From: Aureisphaera galaxeae
Lineage (GTDB): Bacteria; Bacteroidota; Bacteroidia; Flavobacteriales; Flavobacteriaceae
Assembly (NCBI RefSeq): GCF_028561275.1
Contig: NZ_JAQQTF010000006.1
Span: 186,001-250,000, forward strand
Direction of reading: 5' to 3'
DNA length: 64,000 nt
How positions within the stretch are numbered: position 1 is the stretch's first letter; the number at the start of each line of letters is the position of its first letter. The notes under the pieces are model-generated. The model worked only from the letters and a program-made list of their open reading frames with translations, made no database searches and had not been told where the DNA came from. Shown in pieces: positions 38,907 through 64,000 of the stretch. The position numbers and the translations under genes are program-made.

Positions 38907-40238
38907 TTACGCAATGGCAAGGTTGGATGAAAATAGTTGGTCGTTTAAGTACCGTAAAACGGTAATTTTATGAGTAGTATCTACCAGAAACGGAATATTG
39001 TCACTATTCTCATAAGACACCATCTTTACGGGTAATTCGTTGATTATATCGGTTATTTTCTCTGCATTTTTATCCTGGCTCAGCGCTTCTCCCACAATAC
39101 AGATAATACTATGATCGAAGTAGGCTGTTACCGAAGATTCCTTTCTTAGATCGGCTATGATTTCATTAAGACGACTTGTATTCTGGATAGCCAGTGATAC
39201 CGAATCTCCTGAAATCGTAAACATATCTACGGTAGCCTTGTGTTTACTAAGGATCTCTGAGGCGGAAGATACATACTGGGAAAGGGAAATGTTTCGATTT
39301 ATCCTTACTTTAAGTAAGGTAATTCCATCTTTTGCAGCAATCGCCTTAATGCCTTTTTTTAATGCCTTATTCGAAATGACGGTTCCTTCGGCAGTAGGAT
39401 CGAAAGTGTTTTTCAAAATAAGCGGTATATGTCTGTCCTTGATCGGAATCATCGTCTTAGGATGTAAAATCTTCGCTCCAAAAAAAGCTAGGTCGGCCGC
39501 CTCTCCATACGAGATTTGAGGTATGGAAAAGGTTTCAGCAACATATCTGGGATCATTGTTGTGGAGCCCATTAATATCTGTCCAAATCTGAACTTCGTCT
39601 GCATTTACAGCGGCGCCAATAATGGTAGCCGTATAATCACTCCCACCTCTTTGAAGATTACTCAAAGTCCCTTTTTTATCCCGACAAACAAACCCTTGGG
39701 TAATGTAGATATCCGTAGGTTCCTCATGTTGTAATTCTGCTCTAAGTTTCGAAGTAACCTTTTCAATATTGGGTGTTTCCAAAGAATCTATATACATAAA
39801 ATCCTTTGCCTTAAGCAGTACATTGTGAACACCAGATGCGGTAAGAAACTTAGAAAAAATGACAGTTAGTAGCTCTTCCCCCAATGTAAGAATTTGGGAA
39901 GTGTTTATTTGAGAGGAATCCCTTAGTACAAATTTTCTTACTTCTGAAATCAAACGATCTATATGCGCCTTGGTTTCCTTCCTTGTTGCTGGACTATCGA
40001 TAAGATCTTCAATAAACGCATGGTGCTGTTTTTGAAGCAAATCCAAACTGTTTTCTGCGGCAACCGTTTGGTTTTCTTTTACATGCCCTGCAAGCACCAC
40101 TAGGCGATCGGTGACCCCTTTAATGGCGGAGCAAACCACAATTTTCTTGCCTTGGGTTTGTTTCAGCAGTCCACGTATGGTGTGTAAATTTTTAATCGAT
40201 CCCACAGAGGAACCCCCAAATTTTAGCACTTTTATCAT
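38907..40238 (-). CDS. Aspartate kinase in an NRPS cluster
   Basis: 443 aa, monofunctional. The opening KVLKFGGSSVGS is the aspartokinase nucleotide-binding site; TQGFVCRDKKGTLSNLQRGGSDYTA, WTDINGLHNNDPRYV and EAADLAFFGAKILHPKT are the catalytic signature. The C-terminal ~300-443 has two ACT-type units (VRINRNISLSQYVSSASEI, FDHSIICIVGEAL). It makes beta-aspartyl phosphate, the first step to Lys, Thr, Met and diaminobutyrate. It is the last gene of the peptide cluster. As no semialdehyde dehydrogenase is with it, either a resistant target copy or a precursor boost is possible. Confidence 0.9.
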   Translation of the reverse strand: MIKVLKFGGSSVGSIKNLHTIRGLLKQTQGKKIVVCSAIKGVTDRLVVLAGHVKENQTVAAENSLDLLQKQHHAFIEDLIDSPATRKETKAHIDRLISEVRKFVLRDSSQINTSQILTLGEELLTVIFSKFLTASGVHNVLLKAKDFMYIDSLETPNIEKVTSKLRAELQHEEPTDIYITQGFVCRDKKGTLSNLQRGGSDYTATIIGAAVNADEVQIWTDINGLHNNDPRYVAETFSIPQISYGEAADLAFFGAKILHPKTMIPIKDRHIPLILKNTFDPTAEGTVISNKALKKGIKAIAAKDGITLLKVRINRNISLSQYVSSASEILSKHKATVDMFTISGDSVSLAIQNTSRLNEIIADLRKESSVTAYFDHSIICIVGEALSQDKNAEKITDIINELPVKMVSYENSDNIPFLVDTTHKITVLRYLNDQLFSSNLAIA

Positions 40239-40315
40239 AGTATTTCAATGAGATTATAGGTCTTGGTTTTCTTATTGAAGAGGAACTTTAAATTCCGTTC
40301 AAAATCGCATATCAC

Positions 40316-40960
40316 TTAGGCAAAGGCTTCTTTAAGATGGGCGATACAGATGTCTGTATTTTGCCCTTTAAAAGCAATATGGCATTTGTAATTCTCCTGA
40401 ACATCCAACTCTTCCAAAAAGAAAGTTTCATTGTCTACTACCGAAGCATTATCGATGATTTCGAAAGAGTTCAAGGGTATAGAGAGCCCCATTCCATTGG
40501 CCTTTAAGGTAGCTTCCTTCTGTGTCCAATAGTCATAAAATGCAGTTTGCTTATCGGAAGCCGAACATATTTTTGTCCATTCACTGGGTGTCATCTGCTT
40601 TTGAAAGTCCTGCACATTTATTTCACCCATAATTTCAATGTCCACCCCAATATCGCATACATCGGTAATCGCACATACTACGATATCCCCGGAATGCGAA
40701 ATATTGAATTTAATGTCTTTGTCCTTCAGGAAGGGTTTGTTGTACTCGTTATAGAAAATCTCTCCTTCCCCAGCATAATTGTGTTGTTGTAGCCCATAGC
40801 GCAGCAACAATCTCCCTAAAATGGATAACTGTGCATCTTGCCACCTGCGATACTTAAGAACACGCTCTTGGTACTCCCTAGGAAAACTAGGCAGAAACCG
40901 CTTGAGAAGATCATCATGAACTTCTTTAGAGATATATGTGTAATATAGGTTCGTCATCAC
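40316..40960 (-). CDS. 4'-phosphopantetheinyl transferase (Sfp-type)
   Basis: 214 aa. The Sfp hallmarks are present: FNISHSG (residues 85-91), GVDIE (Asp107, Glu109 for Mg2+), and WTQKEATLKANG (Trp145, Lys148, Glu149, Ala150). It attaches the phosphopantetheine arm to the serine of the PCP domains of both NRPS proteins. Located 36 bp after the ATP-grasp gene in the same run. Length is that of a normal Sfp-type enzyme. It may also serve other carrier proteins. Confidence 0.92.
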   Translation of the reverse strand: MMTNLYYTYISKEVHDDLLKRFLPSFPREYQERVLKYRRWQDAQLSILGRLLLRYGLQQHNYAGEGEIFYNEYNKPFLKDKDIKFNISHSGDIVVCAITDVCDIGVDIEIMGEINVQDFQKQMTPSEWTKICSASDKQTAFYDYWTQKEATLKANGMGLSIPLNSFEIIDNASVVDNETFFLEELDVQENYKCHIAFKGQNTDICIAHLKEAFA

Positions 40961-43905: not shown

Positions 43906-45864
43906 TTATACTATCCCCCAATAAAGGAGATAGGTCGCGATTAACATGTTTGAAAAAATAAATGAGAAAACGACACTTCGTTCTTGGATTTTCTTCAAGC
44001 TAATAATGAAATAAATGAATAATAGGGCTACCAATACCACAAATAACAATGATAGGGTAAACAAATAGTTGAATTGCTCTGGAAGACCGAAGGCGAGAAC
44101 ATAAAAGTTCTGCTCGGATGTTTTCAGTAAGGCCAGAATCAATCCTACCAAAGTGGTAATCCCCAATAGGGCCACCAACAGACTGGATCCTCGCACGAGC
44201 GCATCGGATAAGTTGGTGTACCTTTTTCTTATAATTTTAACTAGATATGTTGCACTAAAGCCAATCATGAGTAACAGAGCAATGGCTAGCGGCCCTAGAA
44301 ACAATGGGTTTACTTGAGTTAAACTATTACCCATACTGGCAACCCCGTTGTTTAGGCTTATTCCTTTGGCAAAATCAATGGCATCTGCTTCTAGAAAAGT
44401 ATCTTCATCGAGCGTTGCATTGGGATCCTCCAAAAATGTCGTTGCTATGTTCTTACCAATTCTTGTAAAACTGGGAGTGTGTCCATAGGTAAAGCCTGTT
44501 ATATTCGTGCTGTTTGCATACTTTTCGGTAACGCGTTGCCCATTTTCCCATGGTGTTATAGGATCGAATTCTCCCGAAAACACCAATACGGGCGCCTTTA
44601 GCACGGCTGTACTATCCGCGGATGTAAAAGAAGGCAAAGTGGTATTCGAGTTCCATTGATCGCATACTTTGAAGTCGGAACCATAAAAGGAAACCCCTCC
44701 TTGCAAACCAGCATATTGTTGGGCATTGAGTGCATATGCATCATTAGAATTTTCTGGCAAAGCTTCATTGCAACTTACACAATAATATACCCCGTAATCC
44801 ATGCCCAAAAGACTGGAAAATGCTTCTACCAAATTCCCCAAGGCCTCTTCATTACGGTCGTGAAACTGATACACCAACAAGGGTATTATTTCAATGAGGC
44901 TCTTACGATATAAGGCCTGCTGAATCGCAATTTTAAAATCCTCCGCATTGTAGGTAAACTCACCCGAGGGAATCATTTTCTTCTTGGCTTTCACAGTAAG
45001 CGGTTCGTCCTTTAACTGCGCAATGGTCTCGTAATACACCTTTTCAAGATCTGGATATTGATCGCTGCACTCTGGGTCATTTTCACATTTCTCGAATACC
45101 TTCCGCAAGCTCCCCATATAATTACTGGTGTTCTTGCTATAGTAAGTGGTTATGTCATCTATGGCGGAGTCTAAAACGAGTGACCTTATATCCTCAGGAT
45201 ATTGATCGGCATATACTTGAGACATATGCGTTCCATAGGATACGCCATAGATATTCCAAGTGTCGTACCCGAGCTCTGTTTTCAATGTGTTTAAATCCTT
45301 AGCTACTGCCTGACTGTGATACCCGCGTATATCGATATCACGATTTAAAAGGTCCTGCTTACATAGTAGCGAAGCCGCTACTTTCTGTCTTTCGTCTTCT
45401 TCTACCGATTGGTCCTTTGCCAAAATCTGCAGAAACTCTTCGCCCAAATCCGGACATAACCGAGGTTCAGAAAAGCCTGTTCCCCGAACATCCATCAATA
45501 CGACATCCTTGGTTTCCCTTACAGGATGGTATAACCAGGTGCGGATGTTTTGAATACCGCTGGCACCCGGACCTCCCTGAACGAATACTACTGCATCGGG
45601 ATCGTCGCTTTTGGACCAGCTCTTTAACACACAAACGGCAACCTTAATGGTATTGGCTTCCTTATCTTCCCAATTTTCGGGCACGTTTAAGAATCCCCAT
45701 ATCACTTCTTCTTCTGCCAATGCGTCCGAATTAGGATAAAAAGGTTCGGCCTTTTCAAATGTGGGAGACTGCGCCCAACCTAAGGTTCCCCCCAATTGAA
45801 ATAAAAGGAATAAAACCAATGGTCGTAGGTTCCACCGTGTGAAACTTTTCATGCTATTTTTCAT
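43906..45864 (-). CDS. Secreted/membrane alpha/beta hydrolase (proline iminopeptidase/TAP-like)
   Basis: 652 aa; Met5 (45852) is an alternative start. A signal peptide ends WAQ. The hydrolase domain has the oxyanion QGGPGAS (~96-102), nucleophile GVSYG (Ser209), Asp in GEFDPITPWENG (~434) and His in YGHTPSF (~462), as in tripeptidyl/proline iminopeptidases. A C-terminal extension (~515-652) adds four membrane helices. Being periplasmic and in the NRPS operon, it may trim an exported prodrug peptide or protect the host; this is inference. Ends 117 bp before the ATP-grasp gene. Confidence 0.8.
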   Translation of the reverse strand: MKNSMKSFTRWNLRPLVLFLLFQLGGTLGWAQSPTFEKAEPFYPNSDALAEEEVIWGFLNVPENWEDKEANTIKVAVCVLKSWSKSDDPDAVVFVQGGPGASGIQNIRTWLYHPVRETKDVVLMDVRGTGFSEPRLCPDLGEEFLQILAKDQSVEEDERQKVAASLLCKQDLLNRDIDIRGYHSQAVAKDLNTLKTELGYDTWNIYGVSYGTHMSQVYADQYPEDIRSLVLDSAIDDITTYYSKNTSNYMGSLRKVFEKCENDPECSDQYPDLEKVYYETIAQLKDEPLTVKAKKKMIPSGEFTYNAEDFKIAIQQALYRKSLIEIIPLLVYQFHDRNEEALGNLVEAFSSLLGMDYGVYYCVSCNEALPENSNDAYALNAQQYAGLQGGVSFYGSDFKVCDQWNSNTTLPSFTSADSTAVLKAPVLVFSGEFDPITPWENGQRVTEKYANSTNITGFTYGHTPSFTRIGKNIATTFLEDPNATLDEDTFLEADAIDFAKGISLNNGVASMGNSLTQVNPLFLGPLAIALLLMIGFSATYLVKIIRKRYTNLSDALVRGSSLLVALLGITTLVGLILALLKTSEQNFYVLAFGLPEQFNYLFTLSLLFVVLVALLFIYFIISLKKIQERSVVFSFIFSNMLIATYLLYWGIV

Positions 45865-45874: not shown

Positions 45875-48800
45875 TTAAAAATTGAAACTTATATCGATGG
45901 CTTCCTCTTTCTCGAAAGCCAGATCTATATCTAGGGATCCGACACTTACCTCAGGCTGTTCAACGATTTGTTCCAGCATTTTTTGGTATTTAAGAACGAG
46001 CAGGTCTAGCGTAGCTTTTTCATACTTGTCGGTATCATAATGAATAGTCCCCGAAAGGGCATCCCCTACTTCTGAAAGATCAAAGAGTATAGGGAGTCTG
46101 CTATAACTGTTGTGAAGGGTGTACGGGCGCAATTTCAAGTCATCCGTTAGCCGAATGTCATCACTTTGAAAGAAGGTGTTCTGCAATACAAACAGTACAT
46201 CTACTCGAAGGGATTTGTAGATCGATTCAGGGATATCCTGATATTCATCTATGGTTAACAAATCGTCATGAACCCTTTGCAATACTTCCGAAAAGATCTG
46301 CGATGATTCAATTCGTGTACGTAAAGGCAAAGTCTTCACGAACATGCCTATCTGCGATTCCGATTCGGGAAAGTTACGTCCCGAATTAACCGTCCCTATA
46401 CATAGGTCCTCCTTTCCCTTCCATGTGTGAAGGGTACACGTAAATGCTGTTAAGAGCAACGAATGCAGCGAACAGTTGTACTTAGTCGCCAATTGCTCCA
46501 AGCTTTGCTTCAGCTCCTTGTTAATGGCAAAGTCGGTGACAGCGGCTTGATTATTTTCTTCGGCATACGAGTGGTCAACAGGAATGACAGGAGACCACGT
46601 ATAATTTCGTAAATATTGTTTCCAATACCTTTCATTATTTGATGTTGAAAGGGCCTCTCTTCCCTCCTGCCAAACGGCGTAATCCTTAAACTGAAAATTG
46701 AGCGAAGGTATGGGCGTAAGGGAATTCGATATTCCGTTTTTGTAACGGCGCATCAATTCACCAATAAGCACATCCAAGGACCAAGCGTCCATGATAATGT
46801 GGTGTGTTGCAAATGCTACGTAGATATTTCCTTTTTCATCTTTAAAAACACCCAATCGTACCAATAGGTCATTGGATAAGTCGAAGGCTTCGTGAACATA
46901 AGACTGTATACACTCTTCGAGTAAACTTTGCTCTATAGTAAAGGTATCGACCTTAAAATTCGTATCCGTAGTGCTTATCTTCTGCTTTAACTCTCCTTGG
47001 TTCTCGACAAATTGTGTTCTTAATATCTCGTACTTATCAATAATATTTTTGAAAGCGCTTTCCAATAGCTCCGTATCTAATTCACCCGTTACTTGATAGA
47101 CTGAAAACATATTGTAGCCTATGGATCGCTCCTTCTTTTGAGATGCCAACCACATAGGATACTGGCTGGTGGTAACAGGAAACGATGTTCCTTCTGTTAC
47201 CTTGGCAATAGGAGCATATCCTTCCTTGAGCTTCGAGGCTATCTGGGCAGCCAATGCTCTTACAGAGTCATGATAAAAAATCGTTCTTAACGAAAGCTGA
47301 ATTTGGAATTCGTTAGCAATTCTACTTATTAGCTTTACAGCATTGAGGGAATGTCCGCCAAGCGCAAAAAAGCTATCGGTAGTACTAAAATCATCCTCCA
47401 GCCCTAGCACTTCTCGATACATTTGTAAAATTTGATGCTCTAATACTGATTCCGGTAATTCCGTTACCTCATCTACCATAGGGACTACTTCCCTTTGGGC
47501 CAGTTCCTTTCTATCAATTTTATTGTTCGGGGTTTTCGGAAAAGATTCCAAGGTCATTATGGCACCAGGAATCATATACTCGGGTAACTTCTCCCGAAGT
47601 GTTTTTAAACAATCTCTTTCATCAAGGGACTCGCTATTTTTCATCACATAAGCGATAAGGCGGGCATTGCCTTCTGAGTCTTTCTTGGCTACTACCACAG
47701 AATCCTTAATTTCAGGCAATGCATTGAGTGCTGTTTCCACTTCACCCAACTCAATTCGATAGCCTCGAATCTTCACTTGTTGATCGACTCTTCCCATAAA
47801 CACCACTTCCCCATTTTTATTCCATCGGGCCAAATCGCCTGTACAATACATTCGCTTACCTGTTTTGAATGGATCGGCAATGAACTTATCGTCGGTAAGC
47901 TCCTTGTTTTTATAATATCCTTGAGCTAGACCTTCCCCTGCGATGTACAACATCCCAGGAACTCCAGTTGGCTGGAGATCCAGCTTATCGTCTAAAATGT
48001 AAAGCTGGGTATTGAGTATGGGTTTGCCAATAACACCTGCATGACTTGGATCACTAATTCTCTTGCAACTGGACCAAATTGTGGTTTCTGTTGGACCATA
48101 CATATTCCAAAGGGAACTACAGGTATTCAACAGTTTAGCTGCTAGTGATTCACTTAACAGATCCCCACCGCAAAGCACGCTAAGACCCTTATCCCCTTTC
48201 CAACCTGCATTGTATAGCATTTGATAAAAACTCGGAGTCCCTTGAATTACCGAAGGTTTCACTTCATCCAGTCGTTGTAACAATGCCAAAGGATCCGTTA
48301 GCTCTTCGTTAGAGGCAATATAAACCGAGGCTCCCGCAACCAGAGGGAGGAAGAACTCCAATATTGAAATATCGAAAGACTGTGTGGTTACCGAAAACAA
48401 AACATCTTCCTTGGTAAGCCCCGGCTTTATTTTCATGCTCACTAGAAAATTAAGTAGTGCCTCATGACCTATGGCTACTCCTTTTGGCAATCCTGTAGAT
48501 CCAGAGGTATAAATGATATAAGCGGTTTCCGATGGAGCCACGGGGATTGGTTCGAAGTTCGAATCCTCCCCAATTAGCATCTCATCAATATCCATGAAGG
48601 TTACCGAATGATCTAACCTTATACCTAATTCCTGTGTGCCTACAACTCCTTTCACATCACTGTGCGACAGAATGTGTGCAATCCGCTCTTGTGGAAAATT
48701 GGGGTCCAATGGGATAAAAGCCCGCCCCGTTTTAAGTATTCCCAAAAATGTAGCCACCATATTAGCGGAGCGATTCATAAGAACCGCTACTGGCGATTTG

Positions 48801-52108: not shown

Positions 52109-52828
52109 TTAGAATGACAATGGGACATTGGCGAAACCATTAATGGCGCTTGCTATTTGATTTTTGTGTTGGTGGATGAAAAAATGATTGCCTGGAATTA
52201 CTTTACTTTTAAAATCGGCCAAAGTGAATTGTGCCCAGTTATCTATGCTGTCTACGGTTTCCTCACGATCGCCCATAATGGCGTGGATGGGAACCTTTAT
52301 CTGCAACCCCCTTTCGGAAAAATCATCCTTCTCAAGGACTTCAAAATCGGCCCGGATAATAGGACTGAAAAATTCATATAGTTCATCGTTTTCCAGCACT
52401 TCGGTAGGAATACCTCCTAATTCCCTAAGGGTTTTCTTAAAGTCGGTATCGTTGAGTAAATATCGTTTTACGGCACCGTTTTCTTTTACCCCAGGCCCTG
52501 CATTTCCAGAAACCAAAAACAGTTGGGGTGCATCAAGCGCTTCTTCCATTTTTTTGGTAACGGTAAGTCCCAATGTCGCTCCCATGCTATGACCATAAAT
52601 AATATACGGTTGTTGGTTGCGCAAGGCTTTTATCTGGGCAACATAATCGTCTATGGCTTCTTCCTTGTTTGGGATTAAGTCCTCCTGGAATCGCTTTCCG
52701 CGACCGGGTAGTTCCAGTGAGATAAACTCAATATCTTCGTCTATGCTTTCCTTCAGGAAATTGTAGGAATAACTATTCCCTCCCGCAAAATGCAACAGAA
52801 AGCACTGTTTTTTGGCTTGTGGATACAT
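52109..52828 (-). CDS. Type II thioesterase (GrsT-like)
   Basis: 239 aa. LLHFAGGNSYSYNFLK start, GHSMGATLGL nucleophile (Ser81), a later Asp in AIMGDREETVD and His in PGNHFFIHQH. All are marks of the type II thioesterases that clear wrongly loaded or stalled residues from PCP domains. Neither NRPS protein has its own thioesterase domain, so it might also help in release, but proofreading is the usual role. 20 bp after the hydroxylase gene. Confidence 0.92.
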   Translation of the reverse strand: MYPQAKKQCFLLHFAGGNSYSYNFLKESIDEDIEFISLELPGRGKRFQEDLIPNKEEAIDDYVAQIKALRNQQPYIIYGHSMGATLGLTVTKKMEEALDAPQLFLVSGNAGPGVKENGAVKRYLLNDTDFKKTLRELGGIPTEVLENDELYEFFSPIIRADFEVLEKDDFSERGLQIKVPIHAIMGDREETVDSIDNWAQFTLADFKSKVIPGNHFFIHQHKNQIASAINGFANVPLSF

Positions 52829-52848: not shown

Positions 52849-53787
52849 TTAATTGGTCATGGAAACCAGAATCCTACGGTCCCCTTCGTACGAGTTCCTA
52901 CCATGACAGGCAAGCTCGTTATCTACAATCAGGATTTCGTTTTTATTCCAAGTAGGCGCAATGGTGATGGAGTCTATGGTCGCTAAGATCTCCTCTATCA
53001 TCGCTTCCGAAATCTGGCTACCATCTCCGAATTCCACGAACATCGGGAAGTTGTATGGGTTACGGTACATCCGCTTTAGTCCCTCATATACTTGTTTTCC
53101 TAAATGCAACGGGTGAAACTGGTCTATTTGGTTGAACCACACTTTCTCTTGCGTCTGGCGATGCCTAATGATCCCTTTTCGCTTATGAACAAGCCTCACA
53201 TAGTTATTTTCCCTCCATTCGAAATCGATGCCCAATCGCTCGCAATGCGCTTCCAATTCCCCTTTATCCTGTGTCTCGAAGGTATCCTGCCAAGAAGGCC
53301 CCATTCCCATCCCTCCATGGAGGTTACGGATATAGGTAACTCCTTTGTTGTCTATTTCGTCCACAATATCTGGGTTCATCTCTTTTACGATCTTACGTCC
53401 GTCTACCAATAAGGTTTCCCCATCTATCGATGGAGGAACCAAACAGCAGAAAATGAGTTTATTGGGCCAGCTGTTAGAATATGACAATTCGTTGTGCATG
53501 GTAATCTTCTGGCTACTGGCATACTCTGTAGAGGTGTAAACATTATTCACCACCTTGGTCCGCGGGGAATTTCCGTCTACATATCGTAGAAATTCTTTGG
53601 AAATTGAGTTGACCACCGTCTGAAAATGAGAGGGTGTGTCAATTTGTACCCCGTGAAACTTAATGGCTCCATATTGAGACAACAATTCCTCCAACATGGA
53701 CTCATTACTCTTATAATAATCCGTAAACTCCGCGATATCCACTCCATCGAAATGGATATGCTGGAGAAAATCATCCTGGCTTTTCAT
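52849..53787 (-). CDS. TauD/SyrP-like Fe(II)/2-oxoglutarate hydroxylase
   Basis: 312 aa. The iron-binding facial triad is His98 and Glu100 in TMHNELSYS and His295 in ELACHGRNSYEGDRR; the arginine for 2-oxoglutarate is in the same block (Arg304/305). The HNE rather than HTD form is that of SyrP-like/clavaminate-synthase-like enzymes that hydroxylate the beta carbon of a carrier-bound or free amino acid. It probably hydroxylates the unidentified starter residue or Val. Between the receptor and thioesterase genes in the same operon. Confidence 0.88.
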   Translation of the reverse strand: MKSQDDFLQHIHFDGVDIAEFTDYYKSNESMLEELLSQYGAIKFHGVQIDTPSHFQTVVNSISKEFLRYVDGNSPRTKVVNNVYTSTEYASSQKITMHNELSYSNSWPNKLIFCCLVPPSIDGETLLVDGRKIVKEMNPDIVDEIDNKGVTYIRNLHGGMGMGPSWQDTFETQDKGELEAHCERLGIDFEWRENNYVRLVHKRKGIIRHRQTQEKVWFNQIDQFHPLHLGKQVYEGLKRMYRNPYNFPMFVEFGDGSQISEAMIEEILATIDSITIAPTWNKNEILIVDNELACHGRNSYEGDRRILVSMTN

Positions 53788-53886: not shown

Positions 53887-56265
53887 CTATAGTCGATCCC
53901 TTTCATCTTCGTTTCCGGAATCACGGGCACGAACACGTTTCGTTTTATTTCCGAAGTTGTAAGACAGGGTGAACTTTACGTTTCTAGAACTGTTGTTCTG
54001 GTAGTAATTCTGTCTAATTCCGTTGGTAACCCATTCCAGATCACTAGGATCGGTATTGAATATATCGTTAAAGGCCACCGTGAAATTCAATTTCTTGTCC
54101 AGCATTCTATAGCGGAAGGAAACACTAAGGTTGTAACTACTTCCGTAATCGAAAAGATCATCACTAAAAGGCGATACGTACTGGAACCCTAAATTACTGG
54201 TAAAGGTTTTCTCTTTATTGAGGTTGAAACGGTTATTCGTCGCTCCTAAGAAAAGTGCAGTACCTCGTAAGACTGCGTCTATATCATTATTGGTCAAGGA
54301 AGGTTCGTAGTTCACAAAATACAAGGTGTTGTAGTTTTCCCACCAACTTGTGATTTCTTTTCCTCCAGAAACCACTACTCCATAAGAATCCTTTTCAAAA
54401 TAATTTTCCTGTCTAATAATGGTAAGGTTGCTCTCTTCGAAAGAGAAGGTAACAGGACCAGAACCATCTACTTGCTTAGAGTAGAATACATTCGCATTAA
54501 TGTATTCGCCTCCCCAACCCAATTCAAAGTTATTGGTGAACGAAGGTCGTAGGAAAGGGTTTCCTTCACTGAATTTGTTACTATCGTAGAAGAAACGGAA
54601 TGGATTTAAAGCTGAATAGCTCGGTCTATCAATTCTTCTACCGTAACTCGCGTAAAAGGCATGGTTGTCGTTTAAGGTATACTGTAAATAGGCCGTAGGG
54701 AAAAACTCGTCATAGTCGATCTCGTTTGTCTGATTGAGCGTAGCCGTAAAAGTCTCGGTCATAATACGCTCAAATCGCAAACCGAGCTTTAATCGCCATT
54801 TTTCGGTAAGGTTCTTACTAGCACTTACATACAACGCCTGTATGCTCTCTTTGTATCTAAAATCGTCCGTCTGATTGGGATCCAGAACAGGCTCCCCGGT
54901 AATGGTATTGAAAAACTCTGTTTTACTATCGTTTTCAATAAAACTCAACTTTCCACCGTAGGAGAACCGTATTTTTGAAAACGGGTGTTCTACGTCTACA
55001 CGTGCACTGAAGTTAGTGATGTCCTGATTCGCAAAGTTGTTCGCCTGCGCAATCGTATTCACAAAAACATTGTTTGCATCAAAACTATTGGTTTGGAATG
55101 TTCTATCTGTATCCGAACCGTAGTTCAAGTAATCCACATCGACAGAAATCTCTCGTCCCATCGTATCGATTTTATGAATGATGTGTCCGTTAAGGTTGTG
55201 ATAAACTACCTCCCTCTCGTTGATTCCATTGTTAGAGCGCAAAGAATCCAATACACGGTTAGTATCTAAAATGAGGGTATTGGTTCTATCCGTATAATCG
55301 GGAAGGTTATAATTGAACAAATACTGCACTCCCACCGTGGTCTTGTCGGATATATCGTAATCGAAATTAAACTTGGTAGAAAGGAAATCCCTACTGTGTT
55401 TTCTATCGGTAAATGCCACCCAAGGGCCCTCTGCGAAAAAGGTTTCCGATCTCAATTGATTCAACTCATCACCAAGACCACCATTCACGCTCAAAAGCAT
55501 TTGGTACTTATCCTCCTTCAAGGAATAGTTGTTTCTTAAGGAATGCGCAGCATAAGTGGATTGTAAATACGAATAGGAAATGGCATTGTTCCAAGAATTC
55601 GCGATTCCTTTCTTAAATACAATGTTGATGAGTCCACTATTTCCGGCAGCATCGTATTTGGCTGGCGGATTGGTAATCACCTCGATCGATTTAATATCGT
55701 CTGCCGATATGGTTTGCAAAAAGTTAACCATGTCTTGCCCCGTTAGCGGAGAGATCCTACCATTGATCATTAAGCGCATACCGCTTTTCCCGATCATGGT
55801 AATCTCGTTGTTTTTGATAAAAACCCCGGGGGATACCTTAAGGGCATCCATAGCGTCCCCTCCAGTGGCGGCGAGACTGTTCTCTACATTAAATACCAAA
55901 CGGTCTACTTTTCGTTCGAATACTTTCTTTTTGGCAGTAACCACTACCTCTCCCAGCAATTCGCTGTCTTCGGAAAGTTGTACGACTCCCAAATTAAGGG
56001 GTTCGCTTAGTTCGATTTCCTTCTTCCAATCTTTGTATCCCAAATAACCAATGGTTAGCACATAAGATCCTGGGGTTGCTTCTATTACAAACTTCCCGTT
56101 TTCGTCACTTATGGCTCCTTGAACCAAATTATTACCTGCATCCGACAAATAAACATTGGCAAAAGCAATGGGGCCAACGACATCGGTAATTTCACCCCGA
56201 ATTTCAACTTGGGATAAAACAAGATTGGGAAAGGCCAATAAAATAAATAAGAATATACGCTTCAT
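53887..56265 (-). CDS. TonB-dependent receptor-like outer-membrane protein
   Basis: 792 aa from the Met at 56265, which gives the signal peptide MKRIFLFILLAFPNLVLS; the upstream part of the frame overlaps the NRPS-2 stop and is not used. Residues ~20-110 are a carboxypeptidase-regulatory-like domain, ~120-230 a plug (VFIKNNEITMIGKSGMRLMING, PPAKYDAAGNSGLINIVFKKG), and the rest a large barrel ending KFTLSYNFG. It lies 28 bp after NRPS-2. It could take up the product or a cognate metal complex, or act as self-recognition; there is no proof of iron involvement. Confidence 0.88.
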   Translation of the reverse strand: MKRIFLFILLAFPNLVLSQVEIRGEITDVVGPIAFANVYLSDAGNNLVQGAISDENGKFVIEATPGSYVLTIGYLGYKDWKKEIELSEPLNLGVVQLSEDSELLGEVVVTAKKKVFERKVDRLVFNVENSLAATGGDAMDALKVSPGVFIKNNEITMIGKSGMRLMINGRISPLTGQDMVNFLQTISADDIKSIEVITNPPAKYDAAGNSGLINIVFKKGIANSWNNAISYSYLQSTYAAHSLRNNYSLKEDKYQMLLSVNGGLGDELNQLRSETFFAEGPWVAFTDRKHSRDFLSTKFNFDYDISDKTTVGVQYLFNYNLPDYTDRTNTLILDTNRVLDSLRSNNGINEREVVYHNLNGHIIHKIDTMGREISVDVDYLNYGSDTDRTFQTNSFDANNVFVNTIAQANNFANQDITNFSARVDVEHPFSKIRFSYGGKLSFIENDSKTEFFNTITGEPVLDPNQTDDFRYKESIQALYVSASKNLTEKWRLKLGLRFERIMTETFTATLNQTNEIDYDEFFPTAYLQYTLNDNHAFYASYGRRIDRPSYSALNPFRFFYDSNKFSEGNPFLRPSFTNNFELGWGGEYINANVFYSKQVDGSGPVTFSFEESNLTIIRQENYFEKDSYGVVVSGGKEITSWWENYNTLYFVNYEPSLTNNDIDAVLRGTALFLGATNNRFNLNKEKTFTSNLGFQYVSPFSDDLFDYGSSYNLSVSFRYRMLDKKLNFTVAFNDIFNTDPSDLEWVTNGIRQNYYQNNSSRNVKFTLSYNFGNKTKRVRARDSGNEDERDRL

Positions 56266-56293
56266 AATGTCTAAGGTTTGTTCAGGTTGTCTG

Positions 56294-59200
56294 TTAATTA
56301 ATTTCAGTTTTCGATAATAGATTTTGTGAAATAAGACTGTCCAGAGAAAGGAGGTTCTTGCTTTTGGCATAGATAGCCCTGCTACAGCTTAGGTTTATTT
56401 CAAGAGCATTTTTGTATTCGGCACACTGCATGTGTATTCCTGCCACTCCTTTTCGGCGTACTTTTTTTACTGTCACCTTTTCGGAATGGTGCCTATCTAA
56501 AGACTCATTGTATTTCTGATAATTGAAGTCCCCACCCACATATGCATTGATGTCCACTCCATATGCCTTGTCCATATCCTCCTGAATAATCTCGAAGGGG
56601 ATTTCCTGACGCATACGTGCATCGATATACATGGAATACACTTCTTTTACGAAGGGTACATTCAACTTAGTTCCTTGAATGGAAGCCAGTGATAATGGCA
56701 GTATATTGTTAATGGCTCCCAAAATATCTTTATCCTGGGTACTCATTTGCTCACGACCGTTTACAATGATATTCTGAATGAAATTAGAATCCGGTGTAAA
56801 GCGAACCATCATAAATTGATGCAGTGCCATGATGAGTCCGTTTAAAGGCACATTAAAGTCCTTCGCCACGTTCTGCAATTGCTCGAAATCACTTCCTTGT
56901 AAGGTGAGCGACAGTTTGATGAAACGATCGGTAATGCGATCCTTTTCGGTATTTGCATTGCGCATGGCCTCGATTGAAAACTGTTCCTTCCAGAAATTCC
57001 TATCGGAAAGTCCCTGTGGAGAATTCAAGAATTTCTCTTGCATACCAGCAAATTCAAAACTGGACAGCGCATTATTAACAATTGTCTCGCCCGCGAAATA
57101 TCTTTGGGCATTGGTCATTAAAATGTTATTGGTATACGCATCGGTAATACCGTGGTGAATCCCCACATTGACAAGGGCTCCTTTTCGGTTGGCCACATCG
57201 GTAATGACGAAAACTCGGATGAACTCTTCTTCGAACAACTCGAAAGGTTTCATGAAGAAGGTTTTCATGTTCTCATCGATAGCTTCTCGGGTATTTTCGG
57301 ATAAATCCTGGCTAACAATTTTCAGCTTTACATCTTCATTCGAAATGTAAGTCTGCTTTATTTTTCCATTTTCCTTGCCTAGAGATACGCAAAGGATTGG
57401 GTAATGAGCCATGAAGTTTCTGAATTGCTTCTCAAAGTTCCGTTCATCGTATTCTGCAATGTAGAAGTCGTTAACCCCAATGGTTTCCTTTAGTTTGAGG
57501 TAATAATTCTGGTTGTACGATACGTCATAGGTAGTTCCTATATTGTATTTCGAAACTTGTGCTTCATTTGATGCCGTATCGGCAGCATTATTCGTTACTT
57601 CCAAAAGATCATCTATGAGTGCCTCCAAGGTGCGCTTGTACGTTACAATGAAGGTTTCCATGGTTTCACGGTCGAAATCACTACTGGGGTATTGAACTGT
57701 CATTCGTAGCTGATCGGCAAAGATCTTACCCGATACTTTTAGGCATACATCACTGGGGATGTCATCCCCTACTTCATTCCCTACGAAGTCCGAAGCGTAA
57801 CTGAAGGTAGATTCGGTAGAATCATCGCTTCCACTGGCATCGCTGAACTCTCCCAGATAATTGAAGGTTACATCTGGAATGGCTTCCGAAGCAAATCCTT
57901 CTCCGTGATACTTCAGGATTCCATAGCCTATCCCCTTATTGGGAATACGCTCTAAATCCTGTTTCACCTGAATTAAGTTTTCAATGGAATTTTCTGTTTG
58001 GGAAACATCCAACACGAATGGGAATATGCTTGTAAACCATCCCACGGTTCGGGAAATGTCTATTTCATCGAAAATATCCTCACGACCGTGACCTTCCATA
58101 CGAAGCATAGTCTTATCCGAACCAAATACAGTTCTTATACTTTGACCCAGAGCTGTCATCAATAGATGATTTATTTTGGTATCATACACTTGGTTCACCT
58201 TCGTGCTAAGCGCTTGGGTGTAGGCAGTTTCTAAATGGAATCCTACTTCCTTATCGATCACATAACCCGATCCATTATCGTTTTTCGTAAGCTGGTCGAT
58301 GTTTTGTCCTACAACCGTATCCCAATAGTTCTTTTCGGGTCCTTTGGCAAGTTGCGCTGCATATTCCTTAGAAGCACTCACCCAATCCTTAAAGGAATTG
58401 GATTTCTGTGGTAAGGTGGCTTTTTGGTTATTCGCATATTGATTGTACAATTGCTCCAAGTCTTCTACTAGAATTCTCCAAGAAATACCGTCCACCACCA
58501 AGTGATGACATACCAATGCAATTCTATCGGAAGTTTCCAATTGGAAATGCACTATTTTGAAAATATTACCAGCCTCTAATTCCAAGCCGGATTGAACATT
58601 CTCTCCTATAGCCGCCATTTCCTTTAAGGGTGCGGGCGACGTTCTTAAATCGAAGGTAGGAACCGATACTTTGGTAAGTTCATATCCCATATTGTACTGA
58701 TTCCAAGTACCATTTTCGTCCAACGTATAAGACATACGAAGGGCATCATGGTGCTCCGTCAACTTTTGAGCACATTGCAATAAGATTTCTTTATCGATAC
58801 GCTGATTCGATTTTAGCACTACCGACATATTGAAATGATGATATTTCGTTACCTGTAACTGTGTAAAGAAGTATTCCTGAATCGGAGACAAGTCTATTTC
58901 CCCAACCACTTCAGACTGGTCTACAGCTACCAAGTTGTTTCCTATTTTACTGGCCATTTCCTGAAAGTTCAGGGTATGCAGTGCATCTTTGGCTCGTAAT
59001 ACATAGCCTTGTTTTTTCAACCCAGAAATGAGGGAGATCAACTTGATGGAGTCTCCACCCAAATGGTAAAAATTGTCATTCAAACCTACTTGCCCCACTC
59101 CCAAAATGCGTTGACATAGTGTTACTAAGGCAATCTCTTCTTCCGTAGAAGGCTCCAGATAGTTGGACACAATTTTATCCTCTTGGGTCACATCGGGTAA

Positions 59201-62200
59201 ACTTGCTCGATCTACCTTCCCATTGGTATTTAATGGCATGGCATCCAATTGGATATAGTAACTCGGTACCATATAAGCTGGGAGTTCCTTGAATAAGTAG
59301 TTTCTTATAGCTTCGCTATCGGTAGCCTCGTTGGCCACGTAATAAGCCACCATTTCCTTATTAGAAATCTTAACTACCGCCTCATTGATACCTGTCTTTT
59401 TCTGTAAGCAATTTTCTATTTCGCCCAACTCAATTCGGTGGCCATTAATCTTAACTTGGTTATCGGCACGTCCTCCAAAAACAACACTTCCATTGGGCAT
59501 CCATTTTCCTAGGTCACCTGTTTTGTAAAGCAATTCCCCTTCTATAAATGGATTGGATACGAACTTCTCGCTTGTAAGTTCGGGTTGATTCAAATATTCT
59601 TTGGCAAGTCCATCACCACCTAAGTACAATTCTCCCATCACTCCTTTGGGAACCAATTTCTTATTCGGATCTAGAATATATACAGTACTATTGCTTATTG
59701 GGAATCCTATAGGAATATCCCCATCCACCTCTCCAATAGAATAGGTTAAGGAGAAGGTAGTGTTCTCTGTTGGCCCATATCCATTTATTATGGTTAAGTC
59801 TGGATAGGTAGTTCTTAATTTTCCGATGTGCGTTGGAGATAACTTATCCCCACCCACCAATACGGTAGATAGCGTCTGGAAAACGTCTATGTCGGTATCT
59901 ACAATCTGGTTTAACCAACCTGCTGTAAACCACATTACGTTTACGGAAGCCTCTCGAATGGTCTCTTTTAAGGTGCTTACATCCAAGAGTGTATTCTTGG
60001 GTGTCATCACCAATTGTCCGCCATTTAACAAGGGTCCAAAGAACTCGAAAGTCGTAGCATCAAAGGAAAGCGCTCCTGTACAAAGCAATACATTTTTCTC
60101 ATCGCATTGATAGAAATTGGCTGCTTTTACCAATCGCACAATGTTTTTATGCGAAATCACTACTCCCTTAGGTCTTCCCGTAGATCCTGATGTATACATA
60201 ACATAGGCTGCACTATCGCAAGTCGTTGTTATCTCGGGAAGGATATTCGTATAGTTGGTTTTATTGTTTCTAAAGTCATTAATGATCTCTTGATCTACTG
60301 TAACCGCGCAGTTACTATCTTGAGTCATAAATTCAATTCTATCCTGTGGATAACTCGAATCTATGGGCACAAAAGTTCCTCCAGCCTTCAAAATGGCCAA
60401 AAGTGTTATGATATGCCATTCATTTCTATCTAAGGTAATCCCCACAAAATCGCCTGTGGCAACCTTATGTTCTTGGATCAAATAGGACGCCAATTGGGTA
60501 GAAACCGTAGATAATTCTTCATAGGTTAGTGTGTTCTTTTCAAACACTAAAGCAATTTGGTTAGGTGTCTTTTTGGTTTGCTCTTCGAATAAATCCACCA
60601 AGGTCCTTTCCTTCGGATAAGCAACACGGGTATTATTGAAGGTCACCAATAACTCTTCCTTTTCAGCAAAGTTCAAGAACTCCAATGCTTCTATGGTAGC
60701 TTCTGGTTGAGAAATCAAAGAAGCAATCAATTGCTTGAAATGACTCATTAAACCAGCAATGATTTCCTTTTCGTATACATCGCTGTTGAAAACAACATTG
60801 AAGTCTAGGTACTCCCCTATTTCTTCTAGAGAAAAGTCCAAATCGAATTTGGTCTTCGCAATTCCGTGGTCGGTAACGCGGTCTACCACTTCTTGTGGAA
60901 TTTCATCTACAGATTTTGTAATCCCTACGTTATGCAGACGGAAAGTAGCATCGAAAACGGGACTTCTTGAAATGTCCGAACCAATCTTCAGTTTGTTCAC
61001 CAAATGATCGAACGGATAGTCCTGATGCTTGTAATCTTTTAATATGTTTCCTTTGGTACGCTCAAAAAACGCAGCAATGGTTTCTTTTGGATCGATCTGA
61101 CTGCGCAAGGCAATGGAATTTACATACACCCCAATTTGGTTTTCCAAATCGATGTGGCTTCTTCCGGCAACCGGCGTTCCCAAAATAAAGTCCTTATCCC
61201 CTGTATATTTATGCAGCAACAGATTAAAACTTGCATAAAGGCCTATGTACAAACTGGTTTCCTGTTCGTTACAGAATTGCTTGAATGCACGTGTTAATTC
61301 TTTCGGCAAATACGTCTTTAAGTGTCTTCCTTCATGTGTCTTTACAGAAGGTCGTTTCTTTTCGGTAGGCAAATTGAGCAAAGGCAATTCACCAGAAAGC
61401 TTTTCATTCCAATAGTCGAAGTCCGTATCGAAAGCATCTTCCTTAAGTCGTTGATCGTCCCAACAGGCATAGTCCTTAAACTGAATCCTCAGTTCTGGAA
61501 GCGCTGCCCTTCCACTTTCTTTATAGGCATTGTAGAAGGAAAGTAGGTCTCGGGAAAAGATACCCATGGACCAGCCATCGCAAAGAATATGATGAATGTT
61601 GTAAGACAGCACAAAATGTGCCTCAGAAAGCTGAAACAAAGATAGTTTTAACAGCGGTCCTTCTTCCAAATTAAAGGCTTCTTTGGAATTTATATCTATT
61701 CGGTCCTCAATCTTTTCCATTGCTTGGTCCACACCGCGATAATCGAAAAGATCCAATTCAAAGTTCACCTCCTCTGTAGAAAGGATGTGTTGTCTCGGTT
61801 CTCCTTGATCGTTCAGTCTGAAAACCGTTCTCAATATTTCATGTCTTTCGATAACATCGTTTACGGCTTGGTTCAACATAGGCACATCCAAGGCCTCATT
61901 AATTTCAATGGACTGAGCTGTGTTATAGGCTGCCGAAGAGTCGTTGGATTGGCATACCACCCAAATTCTGTATTGGGAAGAAGACAACGGATAGCTGTCC
62001 TGTTCTGGCGCCAAAGGAATCTCCTTGAAAGAAGACTGATCTGTCTTTGCAATCTTATTGGCTTGGTCCCTTAATACCGGAAGATTGAATAGATCGAAAA
62101 TGTCCAATTCTACCCCGAAGGTGGAATGGATATGGGTGGCCAACTGAATAAGGTGAATACTGTTACCGCCCAACATAAAGATATTGTCGGTCACACTTAT

Positions 62201-63901
62201 CTTATCCATGTTCAGTACCTTCTTCCAAATGTCCAATAAGTCCTTCTCCGTTTCATTTACGGGAAGTTCTATGTTCGCACTGTGTTGGAAATAGGTCTTA
62301 ATTCGCTCATTGAGATCTATGGTATCGATTTTTCCGTTGGAATTCACCGGGAATTCTTCCAAATGGATAAAATGCAGACTCAATAATTCATAGTCGGACA
62401 AGAACTTTAGACAATGGGTTCTTATAGCTTCATTACTATCTTCGGATGCTGTGTAAAAACAGATGATGGATTGCACCGATCCGTTTACGGTATGTGGAAG
62501 GCATTTTACCATATTCACATCTTCCAGCTCAAGAATGTTTTCTTCAATGGAATTGATATCGCAGCGTACTCCATTCAACTTAACAACCCCGTCTTTTCTT
62601 CCTAAAACCACTAGGTTTCGTTCGTTGTCGTACTTTCCGAAATCGCCCGTTTTGTAAATGATATCCCCTCTGTTTCCAATGGGATTGGTCACAAATTTCT
62701 GTGATGTCATTTCGGGATCCTTGTAATACCCGCTGGTAAGGAAGGGTGTTTGTATATACACATCACCTACTTCCCCGATATCGCATATATCATTATTTGC
62801 ATTCAGAATGAGAATGTTGGTGTTAGAGATAGGCTTTCCAACACAAAGTACTGCAGAAGCATCTCCAGTCATCGTTTCCGGAACGCGGTAAAAGGTCTTC
62901 ACCAAGGTCGCCTCTGTGGTTCCGTAAAGGTTAATGATGGTTGTATTTGTCCCATAAAGAGCCCGCCAGTCGCTGATATCCTTTTTGTAAAGCTTCTCTC
63001 CCGCCAATAGCATGTATCGCAGCGATGGGAAGTAATTTCCTGAATGCTGTGAACCATCATTGGCACTCAACATACGCATCATGGTTGGGATGGTATGTAG
63101 GATTGTAATGTCCTTTTCCTTGATCCAGTTTTTTAATTTTCCAATATCATTTTTCACTTCCGTGGAAGGAATGCAAATCCTTGCTCCTTCAATAAAGGGA
63201 AGGAAAATATCCCGTAAGGAAGCATCGAAAGAAAGGGAAGTGAGTTGCCCTATTCTATCAGATGCTGTAATCTCTAGTTCTTTAGATTCCCAATGGATAA
63301 AGTGACTTAAGCTTTTGTGATTTCCAAACACCGCTTTGGGCCTGCCCGTAGAACCCGAAGTAAAGAAGATATAGTTGTTATCATTTCCGTCTACTGGAAT
63401 ATCCAAATTTTCACCATTGTTAATCACAATGTTTCCTTCGGTAATGAAGTTGCCATTTTGCCAATTCATCACTTCGAACTGTAGCTCCTCTTTGCTGTTA
63501 AGGGATAGCAATACCACTTTCGGGATGGCAAATTCGAAATCCATATTGGAAGCTTTAATACGTTCCAAATATTCCCGTGTGGTAAGCACCATTTGCGGGC
63601 GAATGGTATCGTACAAAACGCTCCAATGGTTCATTTTGTACTTCTCGTCCAATGGCAAGTAGATTTTTCCTGCTTTAAAAGTTCCAAGAAGTGCAGAAAT
63701 CTGAAGGGATCGATCATTGAAAAAAGAGCATACCACATCTTCCCTACTAACTCCCAACTGATCCAGAACTCCGGCAATTTGATTGGCATTTCGGTTTAAT
63801 TCCGTATACGTGATCGAACGGGAATCCGATTCTATAGCGATCGCATTGGGTCTTTCTGAGACCGTACGTTCAAAAACTGTATGTAATACTTTTTTATTCA
63901 T
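56294..63901 (-). CDS. NRPS-2: A(X)-PCP-C-A(Val)-PCP-E-C
   Basis: 2535 aa. Starter A1 ~1-530; PCP1 Ser581 (GGNSI); C ~630-1075 with HHILCDG (His770-771); A2 ~1095-1570; PCP2 Ser1618 (GGDSI); epimerase ~1665-2105 with HHLVVDG (1799-1805), EGHGRE (~1936-1941) and NYLGEF; terminal C-like domain ~2125-2535 with HHGITDA (2249-2255). A2 code Asp1281, Ala1282, Phe1285, Trp1324, Leu1348, Gly1350, Gly1374, Thr1382, Phe1383, Lys1562 (DAFWLGGTFK) is valine; with the epimerase D-Val results. A1 code DARHLALLVK is not one I can assign; its A8 motif (KLNGVRCDINSIEEN) is divergent. It lacks a starter C domain, so A1 loads the first residue. Confidence 0.92.
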   Translation of the reverse strand: MNKKVLHTVFERTVSERPNAIAIESDSRSITYTELNRNANQIAGVLDQLGVSREDVVCSFFNDRSLQISALLGTFKAGKIYLPLDEKYKMNHWSVLYDTIRPQMVLTTREYLERIKASNMDFEFAIPKVVLLSLNSKEELQFEVMNWQNGNFITEGNIVINNGENLDIPVDGNDNNYIFFTSGSTGRPKAVFGNHKSLSHFIHWESKELEITASDRIGQLTSLSFDASLRDIFLPFIEGARICIPSTEVKNDIGKLKNWIKEKDITILHTIPTMMRMLSANDGSQHSGNYFPSLRYMLLAGEKLYKKDISDWRALYGTNTTIINLYGTTEATLVKTFYRVPETMTGDASAVLCVGKPISNTNILILNANNDICDIGEVGDVYIQTPFLTSGYYKDPEMTSQKFVTNPIGNRGDIIYKTGDFGKYDNERNLVVLGRKDGVVKLNGVRCDINSIEENILELEDVNMVKCLPHTVNGSVQSIICFYTASEDSNEAIRTHCLKFLSDYELLSLHFIHLEEFPVNSNGKIDTIDLNERIKTYFQHSANIELPVNETEKDLLDIWKKVLNMDKISVTDNIFMLGGNSIHLIQLATHIHSTFGVELDIFDLFNLPVLRDQANKIAKTDQSSFKEIPLAPEQDSYPLSSSQYRIWVVCQSNDSSAAYNTAQSIEINEALDVPMLNQAVNDVIERHEILRTVFRLNDQGEPRQHILSTEEVNFELDLFDYRGVDQAMEKIEDRIDINSKEAFNLEEGPLLKLSLFQLSEAHFVLSYNIHHILCDGWSMGIFSRDLLSFYNAYKESGRAALPELRIQFKDYACWDDQRLKEDAFDTDFDYWNEKLSGELPLLNLPTEKKRPSVKTHEGRHLKTYLPKELTRAFKQFCNEQETSLYIGLYASFNLLLHKYTGDKDFILGTPVAGRSHIDLENQIGVYVNSIALRSQIDPKETIAAFFERTKGNILKDYKHQDYPFDHLVNKLKIGSDISRSPVFDATFRLHNVGITKSVDEIPQEVVDRVTDHGIAKTKFDLDFSLEEIGEYLDFNVVFNSDVYEKEIIAGLMSHFKQLIASLISQPEATIEALEFLNFAEKEELLVTFNNTRVAYPKERTLVDLFEEQTKKTPNQIALVFEKNTLTYEELSTVSTQLASYLIQEHKVATGDFVGITLDRNEWHIITLLAILKAGGTFVPIDSSYPQDRIEFMTQDSNCAVTVDQEIINDFRNNKTNYTNILPEITTTCDSAAYVMYTSGSTGRPKGVVISHKNIVRLVKAANFYQCDEKNVLLCTGALSFDATTFEFFGPLLNGGQLVMTPKNTLLDVSTLKETIREASVNVMWFTAGWLNQIVDTDIDVFQTLSTVLVGGDKLSPTHIGKLRTTYPDLTIINGYGPTENTTFSLTYSIGEVDGDIPIGFPISNSTVYILDPNKKLVPKGVMGELYLGGDGLAKEYLNQPELTSEKFVSNPFIEGELLYKTGDLGKWMPNGSVVFGGRADNQVKINGHRIELGEIENCLQKKTGINEAVVKISNKEMVAYYVANEATDSEAIRNYLFKELPAYMVPSYYIQLDAMPLNTNGKVDRASLPDVTQEDKIVSNYLEPSTEEEIALVTLCQRILGVGQVGLNDNFYHLGGDSIKLISLISGLKKQGYVLRAKDALHTLNFQEMASKIGNNLVAVDQSEVVGEIDLSPIQEYFFTQLQVTKYHHFNMSVVLKSNQRIDKEILLQCAQKLTEHHDALRMSYTLDENGTWNQYNMGYELTKVSVPTFDLRTSPAPLKEMAAIGENVQSGLELEAGNIFKIVHFQLETSDRIALVCHHLVVDGISWRILVEDLEQLYNQYANNQKATLPQKSNSFKDWVSASKEYAAQLAKGPEKNYWDTVVGQNIDQLTKNDNGSGYVIDKEVGFHLETAYTQALSTKVNQVYDTKINHLLMTALGQSIRTVFGSDKTMLRMEGHGREDIFDEIDISRTVGWFTSIFPFVLDVSQTENSIENLIQVKQDLERIPNKGIGYGILKYHGEGFASEAIPDVTFNYLGEFSDASGSDDSTESTFSYASDFVGNEVGDDIPSDVCLKVSGKIFADQLRMTVQYPSSDFDRETMETFIVTYKRTLEALIDDLLEVTNNAADTASNEAQVSKYNIGTTYDVSYNQNYYLKLKETIGVNDFYIAEYDERNFEKQFRNFMAHYPILCVSLGKENGKIKQTYISNEDVKLKIVSQDLSENTREAIDENMKTFFMKPFELFEEEFIRVFVITDVANRKGALVNVGIHHGITDAYTNNILMTNAQRYFAGETIVNNALSSFEFAGMQEKFLNSPQGLSDRNFWKEQFSIEAMRNANTEKDRITDRFIKLSLTLQGSDFEQLQNVAKDFNVPLNGLIMALHQFMMVRFTPDSNFIQNIIVNGREQMSTQDKDILGAINNILPLSLASIQGTKLNVPFVKEVYSMYIDARMRQEIPFEIIQEDMDKAYGVDINAYVGGDFNYQKYNESLDRHHSEKVTVKKVRRKGVAGIHMQCAEYKNALEINLSCSRAIYAKSKNLLSLDSLISQNLLSKTEIN

Positions 63902-64000
63902 GATCTATCATTAAAATTTTTAAACTGGCAGTAGGCAATTCCTTTCCTGCCAGGATCTGAGCCCAGCTTAGTACTGCCTGTATCTTGTAGGAAATCTTTG
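63898..64000 (-). CDS. 3' end of an unidentified upstream cluster gene
   Basis: A frame open at the right edge ends with a TGA that overlaps the NRPS-2 ATG by 4 bp (63898-63901). The last 33 codons end KGIAYCQFKNFNDRS. No MbtH signature or other domain can be seen in so short a tail. The ATGA overlap shows that NRPS-2 is translationally coupled to it, so the operon starts outside this window. Confidence 0.65.
   Translation of the reverse strand, partial: KDFLQDTGSTKLGSDPGRKGIAYCQFKNFNDRS

Follow-up and report, generated by a model that had tools for sequence, protein, structure and literature searches.

Prodrug maturation in the colibactin, xenocoumacin and zwittermicin pathways uses an S12 enzyme, and in the pyoverdine pathway an acylated precursor is exported by PvdE and deacylated in the periplasm by PvdQ. 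Glutathione, glutathionylspermidine and YgiC/YjfC synthetases couple the carboxylate of a peptide with an amino acid or polyamine. In ClbP, the periplasmic domain is accompanied by a membrane domain of three helices (PMC9889268). For didemnin, PMC10811503 describes a non-S12 membrane hydrolase, DidK, encoded in the cluster, and a cap that is an acyl-polyglutamine. Peptide-spermidine ligase activity has been ascribed to Escherichia coli YgiC/YjfC (cited in PMC12568646). Here we describe a 64,000-nucleotide stretch of Aureisphaera galaxeae DNA (the window, by which we mean the whole stretch analysed; C16:186,001-250,000 of a 4.59-Mb draft genome), which covers the last third of a ~93-kb nonribosomal peptide synthetase (NRPS) cluster. 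Within it, two ATP-grasp ligases, a membrane-anchored hydrolase and an NRPS protein (NRPS M) belong to a small gene cassette that we found at seven loci.

The seven loci comprised our own, one in Aquimarina muelleri, two in Kordia aestuariivivens (C3 and C6), and those in G206, G544 (same genus) and G563; the six further loci were picked by relatives of the ligase P0002 at 43% identity or more. At all seven, genes for a type II thioesterase (TEII), an ATP-binding cassette (ABC) exporter, NRPS M, the hydrolase, an ATP-grasp ligase and a 4'-phosphopantetheinyl transferase (PPTase) follow one another in this order on one strand. A TonB receptor gene precedes the cassette at 6/7 loci; in G544 it lies farther away, separated by other NRPS genes. 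The NRPS genes outside the cassette differ widely between loci (G544 has many in common with our cluster), and an nrpsA-like gene occurs at every locus that is not cut by a contig end. Kordia C3, G206 and G563 have a single ATP-grasp copy, our cluster and A. muelleri have two, and G544 has three, while in Kordia C6 two ligases are fused into one protein of 926 amino acids (aa; L044:11033-13813). The pairing of ligases pointed out in a preliminary description of the window is therefore real in our cluster, but it is not a rule of the cluster type (copy numbers 1, 1, 1, 2, 2 (fused), 2 and 3). Among 397 genomes of the family, the ATP-grasp gene was detected in three, and these three also had the hydrolase with its transmembrane (TM) segments (>50% identity); the hydrolases that ranked after these had shorter frames (~480 to 510 aa) and at most 32% identity. 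Because the same gene block recurs at six other loci, a chance arrangement can be excluded, and the retention of the cassette at seven loci together with the co-occurrence with the TM-bearing hydrolase indicates that the ligases belong to this cluster type. The preliminary description had allowed that the ATP-grasp genes might serve a different pathway. Their place inside the cassette at 7/7 loci puts them in the NRPS cluster, and in view of its conservation we reject a bystander role.

The two ligases (P0001 and P0002) are paralogues with 43% identity, and neither passed the cut-off of any Pfam or NCBIfam family (best PF14397, E 0.011). Distant Bacteroidota relatives (family A3) came from a search of 395 genomes in the phylum; one of them scores above the cut-off of CP_ATPgrasp_2 (37.3 vs 32 bits), with others near it. 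When 11 NRPS-linked ATP-grasp sequences and eight A3 relatives were compared as profiles, they aligned over 402 columns (hhalign; 99.5%, E 5.6e-23). In a circularly permuted ATP-grasp, an R-x-D/E-x-N pair should come ahead of the lysine and glycine loop, and this is what we observed: R114-x-D116 and E128-x-N130 lie N-terminal to K353 and a glycine loop (G357, G360), all invariant in the 11 sequences. Places 1-14 of a Foldseek search (TM ~0.2) were taken only by human, plant and yeast glutathione synthetases, 3k1t, YgiC, glutathionylspermidine synthetase and a nematode glutathione-synthetase-like protein, a ranking that comes from a poor AlphaFold model (five sequences; pLDDT 52). Such a weak model alone cannot prove the three-domain fold of this class. 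Nonetheless, the profile link, the motif order and the Foldseek ranking agree, and the assignment of both proteins to the circularly permuted glutathione-synthetase/YgiC class, as a subfamily of their own, is well supported. This bears out the circular permutation that had been suggested for them. Plasmid relatives of these proteins are annotated as members of the glutathionylspermidine synthase family; those on Streptomyces plasmids carry no annotation.

NRPS M is well supported as an initiation module with a starter-type condensation (C) domain. The protein has no docking domain, its first C domain starting at residue 2, and the best PDB relative of this domain is 7c1h/7c1k, the starter C domain of RzmA (rhizomide); EntF, VibH and the CDA starter C were also listed. 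The top-ranked matches to the other C domain of M are elongation C domains, that of tyrocidine among them. In 4/4 usable gene calls, the closest plasmid matches to the first C domain form the extreme N-terminus of the NRPS gene that comes first, and a fifth match opens an open frame; two of these five have a gene for an acyl carrier protein or a polyketide synthase upstream. In the tree, the five plasmid N-terminal C domains and the seven M-start domains formed one clade (support 1.0), and internal C domains of the same proteins fell outside it. We therefore set aside M as a colinear last module in favour of initiation, based on the PDB ranking and the tree. As for its partner, nrpsA opens with half a C domain (the C-terminal part; hhalign 97.4%) and then an adenylation (A) domain, and since the terminal C domain of M has no other A-first partner, M to nrpsA is the sole pairing left.

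Gene calls were made by open reading frame (ORF) calling and domains by Pfam/NCBIfam scans against family cut-offs. The cluster is a run of 32 minus-strand genes spanning 92,924 bp (38,907 to ~131,830 in window coordinates), 97.9% coding, with a largest intergenic gap of 390 bp. It crosses the right window edge unbroken and goes on for ~68 kb on the same strand, as expected from the earlier remark that this edge cuts the operon. The two-protein assembly line of the preliminary description did not survive the extension of the contig, which revealed 13 NRPS proteins that total 22,782 residues and contain 19 A domains, two clear epimerization (E) domains and several extra condensation-like domains; the two proteins listed at that time are the two ends of the cluster. 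Like the class of the ligases and the initiation role of NRPS M, the extent of the cluster is well supported.

The pocket residues of the A domains were read by motif position and tentatively matched to published codes. First in the proposed order, NRPS M carries the code D-I-L-Q-L-G-M-I-W, presumably Gly, and this code is identical in M at all loci. For nrpsA we assume Ala (DLFNNALTY) and Leu (DAWALGNVV), followed by a code to which we assign no residue (X; DAKHDGDIV). By the same assumption, NRPS B reads Gly-like, C Ile/Val-like, D Thr and Val, E an unassigned residue (DAHHLALCL) and Asn (DLTKIGEVG), F Val, J an unassigned residue and K Asn. NRPS G would read a possibly 2,4-diaminobutyrate (Dab)-like residue (DIWQLTADD), Orn/Dab (DVGEIGSID) with an E domain after it, and Asn; NRPS I would also be possibly Dab-like (VGWEITTDV), and we take NRPS L to read X and then Val with a following E domain. 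The residues X, D-Val and Gly predicted earlier for the window agree with these codes. Their order does not stand: because NRPS M is the starter, Gly comes first, and X and D-Val last. The interval forms the 3' end of this single 92.9-kb cluster, whose product should be an N-acylated and partly cationic peptide of ~19 residues; cationic residues are suggested by the EctB-type Dab aminotransferase.

The hydrolase keeps a signal peptide, an invariant Ser-Asp-His (S-Y-G-T nucleophile elbow) and four C-terminal hydrophobic helices in 7/7 homologues (alignment, hydropathy). Its solved relatives in the PDB are the secreted S33 proteases Hip1/CaeA and prolyl aminopeptidases. The signal peptide and the S33-type alpha/beta-hydrolase domain at 43,906-45,864 are in line with the periplasmic hydrolase called there before.

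Taken together, these genes suggest a pathway whose last chemical steps we infer. NRPS M would make acyl-Gly and pass it to the first upstream NRPS (nrpsA: half-C-A..., Ala-Leu-X), and the chain would be finished by NRPS L and then released. Each ATP-grasp ligase would activate a free peptide carboxylate with ATP, most likely the C-terminus, and join an amino acid or amine to it, one to three ligases giving one to three added units. A free C-terminus would be the natural ligase site because the N-terminus is blocked by the acyl group; by analogy, the addition of units to this end once the peptide has been released is possible, if somewhat doubtful on balance. That the ligases add residues to the NRPS product, as the preliminary description proposed, is plausible and our leading reading. 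The peptide, still masked, would be carried into the periplasm by the ABC exporter and lose its acyl-Gly cap there to the membrane-tethered hydrolase. Removal of the cap after export is proposed because of the ClbP-like layout and the precedent of DidK, an unrelated membrane hydrolase, and we give it about an even chance. The model as a whole (an acyl-Gly-capped peptide, ATP-grasp tailoring, export and periplasmic cap cleavage) falls a little short of that, and it is put forward tentatively.

Regarding chain release, NRPS L carries at its C-terminus an E-related, partly degenerate condensation-like domain (the X domain; window 56309-57529), which forms its own clade at six loci and always occurs in the NRPS gene upstream of the TonB gene. 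Several points weigh against the proposed pathway. We detected no thioesterase (TE) domain in our own cluster; in G544 the X domain belongs to an NRPS gene other than the last, and a different NRPS of that genome ends in a TE-like domain (GHCAG) with Cys for the Ser nucleophile (G544:C1:361449-368684); Kordia C6 is without the X domain, and its genes beside M are without a terminal domain. At the start of the chain, no acyl-activating gene was found in the cassette, M lacks the E domain and the Asn code of the known acyl-D-Asn prodrug starters, and the reference starter domains were picked as the best matches of M rather than as an independent set. The AlphaFold model of the hydrolase is poor (pLDDT 37), and the enzyme could cut the peptide elsewhere or be no peptidase. 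For the ligases, the fold match was made on weak coordinates (pLDDT 52), and searches of PDB sequences with the ATP-grasp proteins, singly and as a profile, gave no match. The chemistry is predicted from the genes throughout.

It is possible that the ATP-grasp enzymes do not tailor a finished peptide and instead make a building block (a dipeptide or aminoacyl amine) for the starter C domain or for an A domain with an unassigned code. This would be consistent with ligase genes that lie directly beside M at 7/7 loci, whatever the release domain, and with one distant Streptomyces plasmid relative that occurs near a second ATP-grasp gene and MFS and MutE genes. We regard it as unlikely given that the ligases vary from one to three copies without a matching change in M, where the same Gly code is found throughout; moreover, characterised members of the fold class mostly extend a peptide carboxylate (PMC12568646). 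A colinear arrangement would follow the gene order: M would act last and incorporate Gly, and the C domain at its end would release the chain by transfer to an amine that the ATP-grasp enzymes had made or modified. This would agree with the HHxxxD motif kept in that C domain and with the absence of a terminal domain before M in Kordia C6. We consider this a poor prospect, since the first C domain of M is of the starter type and has no docking domain, M would have to follow an extra E-like domain, and nrpsA would become a second starter. That the ATP-grasp genes are passengers of another pathway is hardly credible: they keep the same position at seven loci of variable NRPS content and co-occur strictly with the TM-bearing hydrolase, even though their functional link to the NRPS is a prediction from gene context and they have no Pfam assignment.

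A pyoverdine-like siderophore cluster was also considered, in which hydroxylated Asp/Asn would serve as ligands, a PvdE exporter, periplasmic maturation and TonB uptake would follow, and the ATP-grasp enzymes would add a ligand-bearing residue. The PvdE-type exporter, the TonB receptor, the three TauD oxygenases and the Orn code could all be accommodated in this way. The reading is weak, and we hold it improbable, because the receptor scores only 31.5 bits with TIGR01783 (siderophore-receptor cut-off 223.5), and three modules read Asn rather than Asp. None of the 32 cluster genes was a catechol, hydroxamate or salicylate gene, nor were genes for forming a beta-OH-Asp chelator found among them. 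All three TauD proteins keep the H-x-E...H metal motif of the hydroxylase type (alignment). The motif known for halogenases is H-x-G/A, and we rejected a halogenase reading for all three. Beta-hydroxylation of Asn may occur. There are three C-C doublets at NRPS gene borders as well as three TauD oxygenases, and these may go together, in which case the doublets might act as interface domains for the oxygenases, as in siderophore hydroxylase systems.

The features on which the proposed acyl-Gly-cap pathway is built are listed in Table 1 together with other genes of the cluster. All genes named in the preliminary description were recovered by ORF calling and domain scans, including the PvdE-like exporter, the TonB receptor and the SyrP-like hydroxylase (TauD type); TEII, the Sfp-type PPTase and aspartokinase are also present in the window and were missing from its list.

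Table 1 Features of the NRPS cluster and its 3' border in window positions (those marked w.e. are window-equivalent). T, thiolation domain.
Feature	Position	Strand	Evidence and occurrence
DUF2807 (head GIN) protein, just after NRPS run	38096-38839		kept in G544
Aspartokinase (LysC type)	38907..40238	-	AA_kinase 127.5 bits; TIGR00657 263 bits vs cut-off 208.7
Sfp-type PPTase	40316..40960	-	ACPS + AASDHPPT_N; 7/7 loci
ATP-grasp ligase 2 (P0001), 459 aa	40997..42376	-	circularly permuted glutathione-synthetase/YgiC class
ATP-grasp ligase 1 (P0002), 456 aa	42418..43788	-	circularly permuted glutathione-synthetase/YgiC class
Periplasmic S33-type alpha/beta hydrolase	43906..45864	-	Abhydrolase_1 + TAP-like C-terminal domain; signal peptide
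NRPS M: starter C - A (Gly) - T - C	45875..50308	-	domain scans, A code, starter-type first C
Cyclic-peptide export ABC transporter (PvdE/SyrD type)	50425..52059	-	TIGR01194 304.6 bits vs cut-off 286.2; 7/7 loci
TEII	52109..52828	-	PF00975; 7/7 loci
TauD-family Fe(II)/2-oxoglutarate oxygenase	52849..53787	-	PF02668; one of three in cluster
TonB-dependent receptor, carboxypeptidase-regulatory-like domain	53887..56370	-	OMP_b-brl_3 + CarbopepD_reg_2; 6/7 loci
NRPS L: A(X)-T-C-A(Val)-T-E-X	56294..63901	-	last two residues in gene order; E-like X domain C-terminal
DUF2807 (head GIN) protein, within NRPS run	92,740-93,432 (w.e.)		kept in G544
EctB-type Dab aminotransferase	97,648-99,006 (w.e.)	-	TIGR02407 577.8 bits vs cut-off 552.2
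KamA-family radical S-adenosylmethionine (SAM) protein	105,338-106,699 (w.e.)	-	below all aminomutase cut-offs; G544 copy 84% identical
UpxY-family antiterminator (NusG paralogue), transcriptional 5' end of NRPS run	131,300-131,830 (w.e.)	-	NF033644 129.4 bits vs cut-off 100

UpxY-type NusG paralogues are better known in capsule loci; here, such a gene opens the NRPS run, with a two-component gene pair upstream of it, and nrpsA is preceded by a NusG-type gene in G544 and G563 as well. The aspartokinase, which among the other six cassette loci is kept only in G544, could supply Dab together with the EctB-type aminotransferase, and the Dab reading of the less sure A-domain codes would fit this pair. 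The KamA-family protein may be the source of a beta-amino acid that is used by an A domain whose code is unassigned. Further cluster genes encode a second class-III aminotransferase, a luciferase-like oxygenase, an Asp/Glu racemase-family protein and a cupin_8 protein. Elsewhere in the window, three adjacent DUF2589 genes lie beside a KptA/Tpt1 RNA 2'-phosphotransferase gene (33313-36443), and a DUF805b RNA motif scored above the Rfam gathering score (8711-8743).

No known product turned up for the cluster in the library that we searched, and a literature search (excluding subscription journals and MIBiG) surfaced no account of this gene combination. The locus may represent an undescribed family of giant NRPS clusters in Flavobacteriaceae-type bacteria (its nearest named loci are those of Aquimarina and Kordia), with a detached acyl-Gly starter, an S33 membrane hydrolase that removes the cap after export, and one to three glutathione-synthetase-like ligases that extend the peptide by residues or amines after the assembly line, although we regard this description, in all its parts, as fairly doubtful. 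If true, prodrug-style maturation by an S33 enzyme, structurally unrelated to S12, would be added to the nonribosomal peptide repertoire, and an NRPS product would be extended without further modules by circularly permuted ATP-grasp ligases of variable copy number. The cassette can serve as a compact marker for such clusters in the poorly mined marine Bacteroidota.

When compared with described systems, our locus has partial counterparts in several of them. Aquimarins, which were reportedly described by Dieterich et al. in 2022 (a reference of PMC10734526), are Flavobacteriaceae peptide antibiotics that resemble the product proposed here in having a modified C-terminus and differ from it in being chlorinated. 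The pyoverdine system has the same exporter family and the same order of events as proposed here, but it differs in the fold of its hydrolase and in chromophore and hydroxamate genes that are not present in our cluster. With ClbP, XcnG and ZmaM, the hydrolase has in common a periplasmic catalytic domain, C-terminal TM helices, and an exporter and acylating starter that adjoin it. It differs from them in being an alpha/beta-hydrolase (S33-like) rather than an S12 beta-lactamase-like enzyme and in its four TM helices. The starters of the ClbP/XcnG type make acyl-D-Asn (C-A(Asn)-T-E), whereas the code of M is that for Gly and an E domain is missing from it. Didemnin likewise has an N-acyl prodrug module (DidA) and a non-S12 membrane hydrolase (DidK); the cap there is acyl-polyglutamine rather than the acyl-Gly proposed here, and the relevant passages of the didemnin account mention no ATP-grasp ligase (PMC10811503). 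The ligases themselves resemble eukaryotic glutathione synthetase, YgiC/YjfC, glutathionylspermidine synthetase and CP_ATPgrasp_1/2 in motif order, profile similarity and fold-search ranking. Unlike these known circularly permuted enzymes, P0001 and P0002 score below all Pfam cut-offs and belong to a group that lies within NRPS clusters, in one to three copies or fused.
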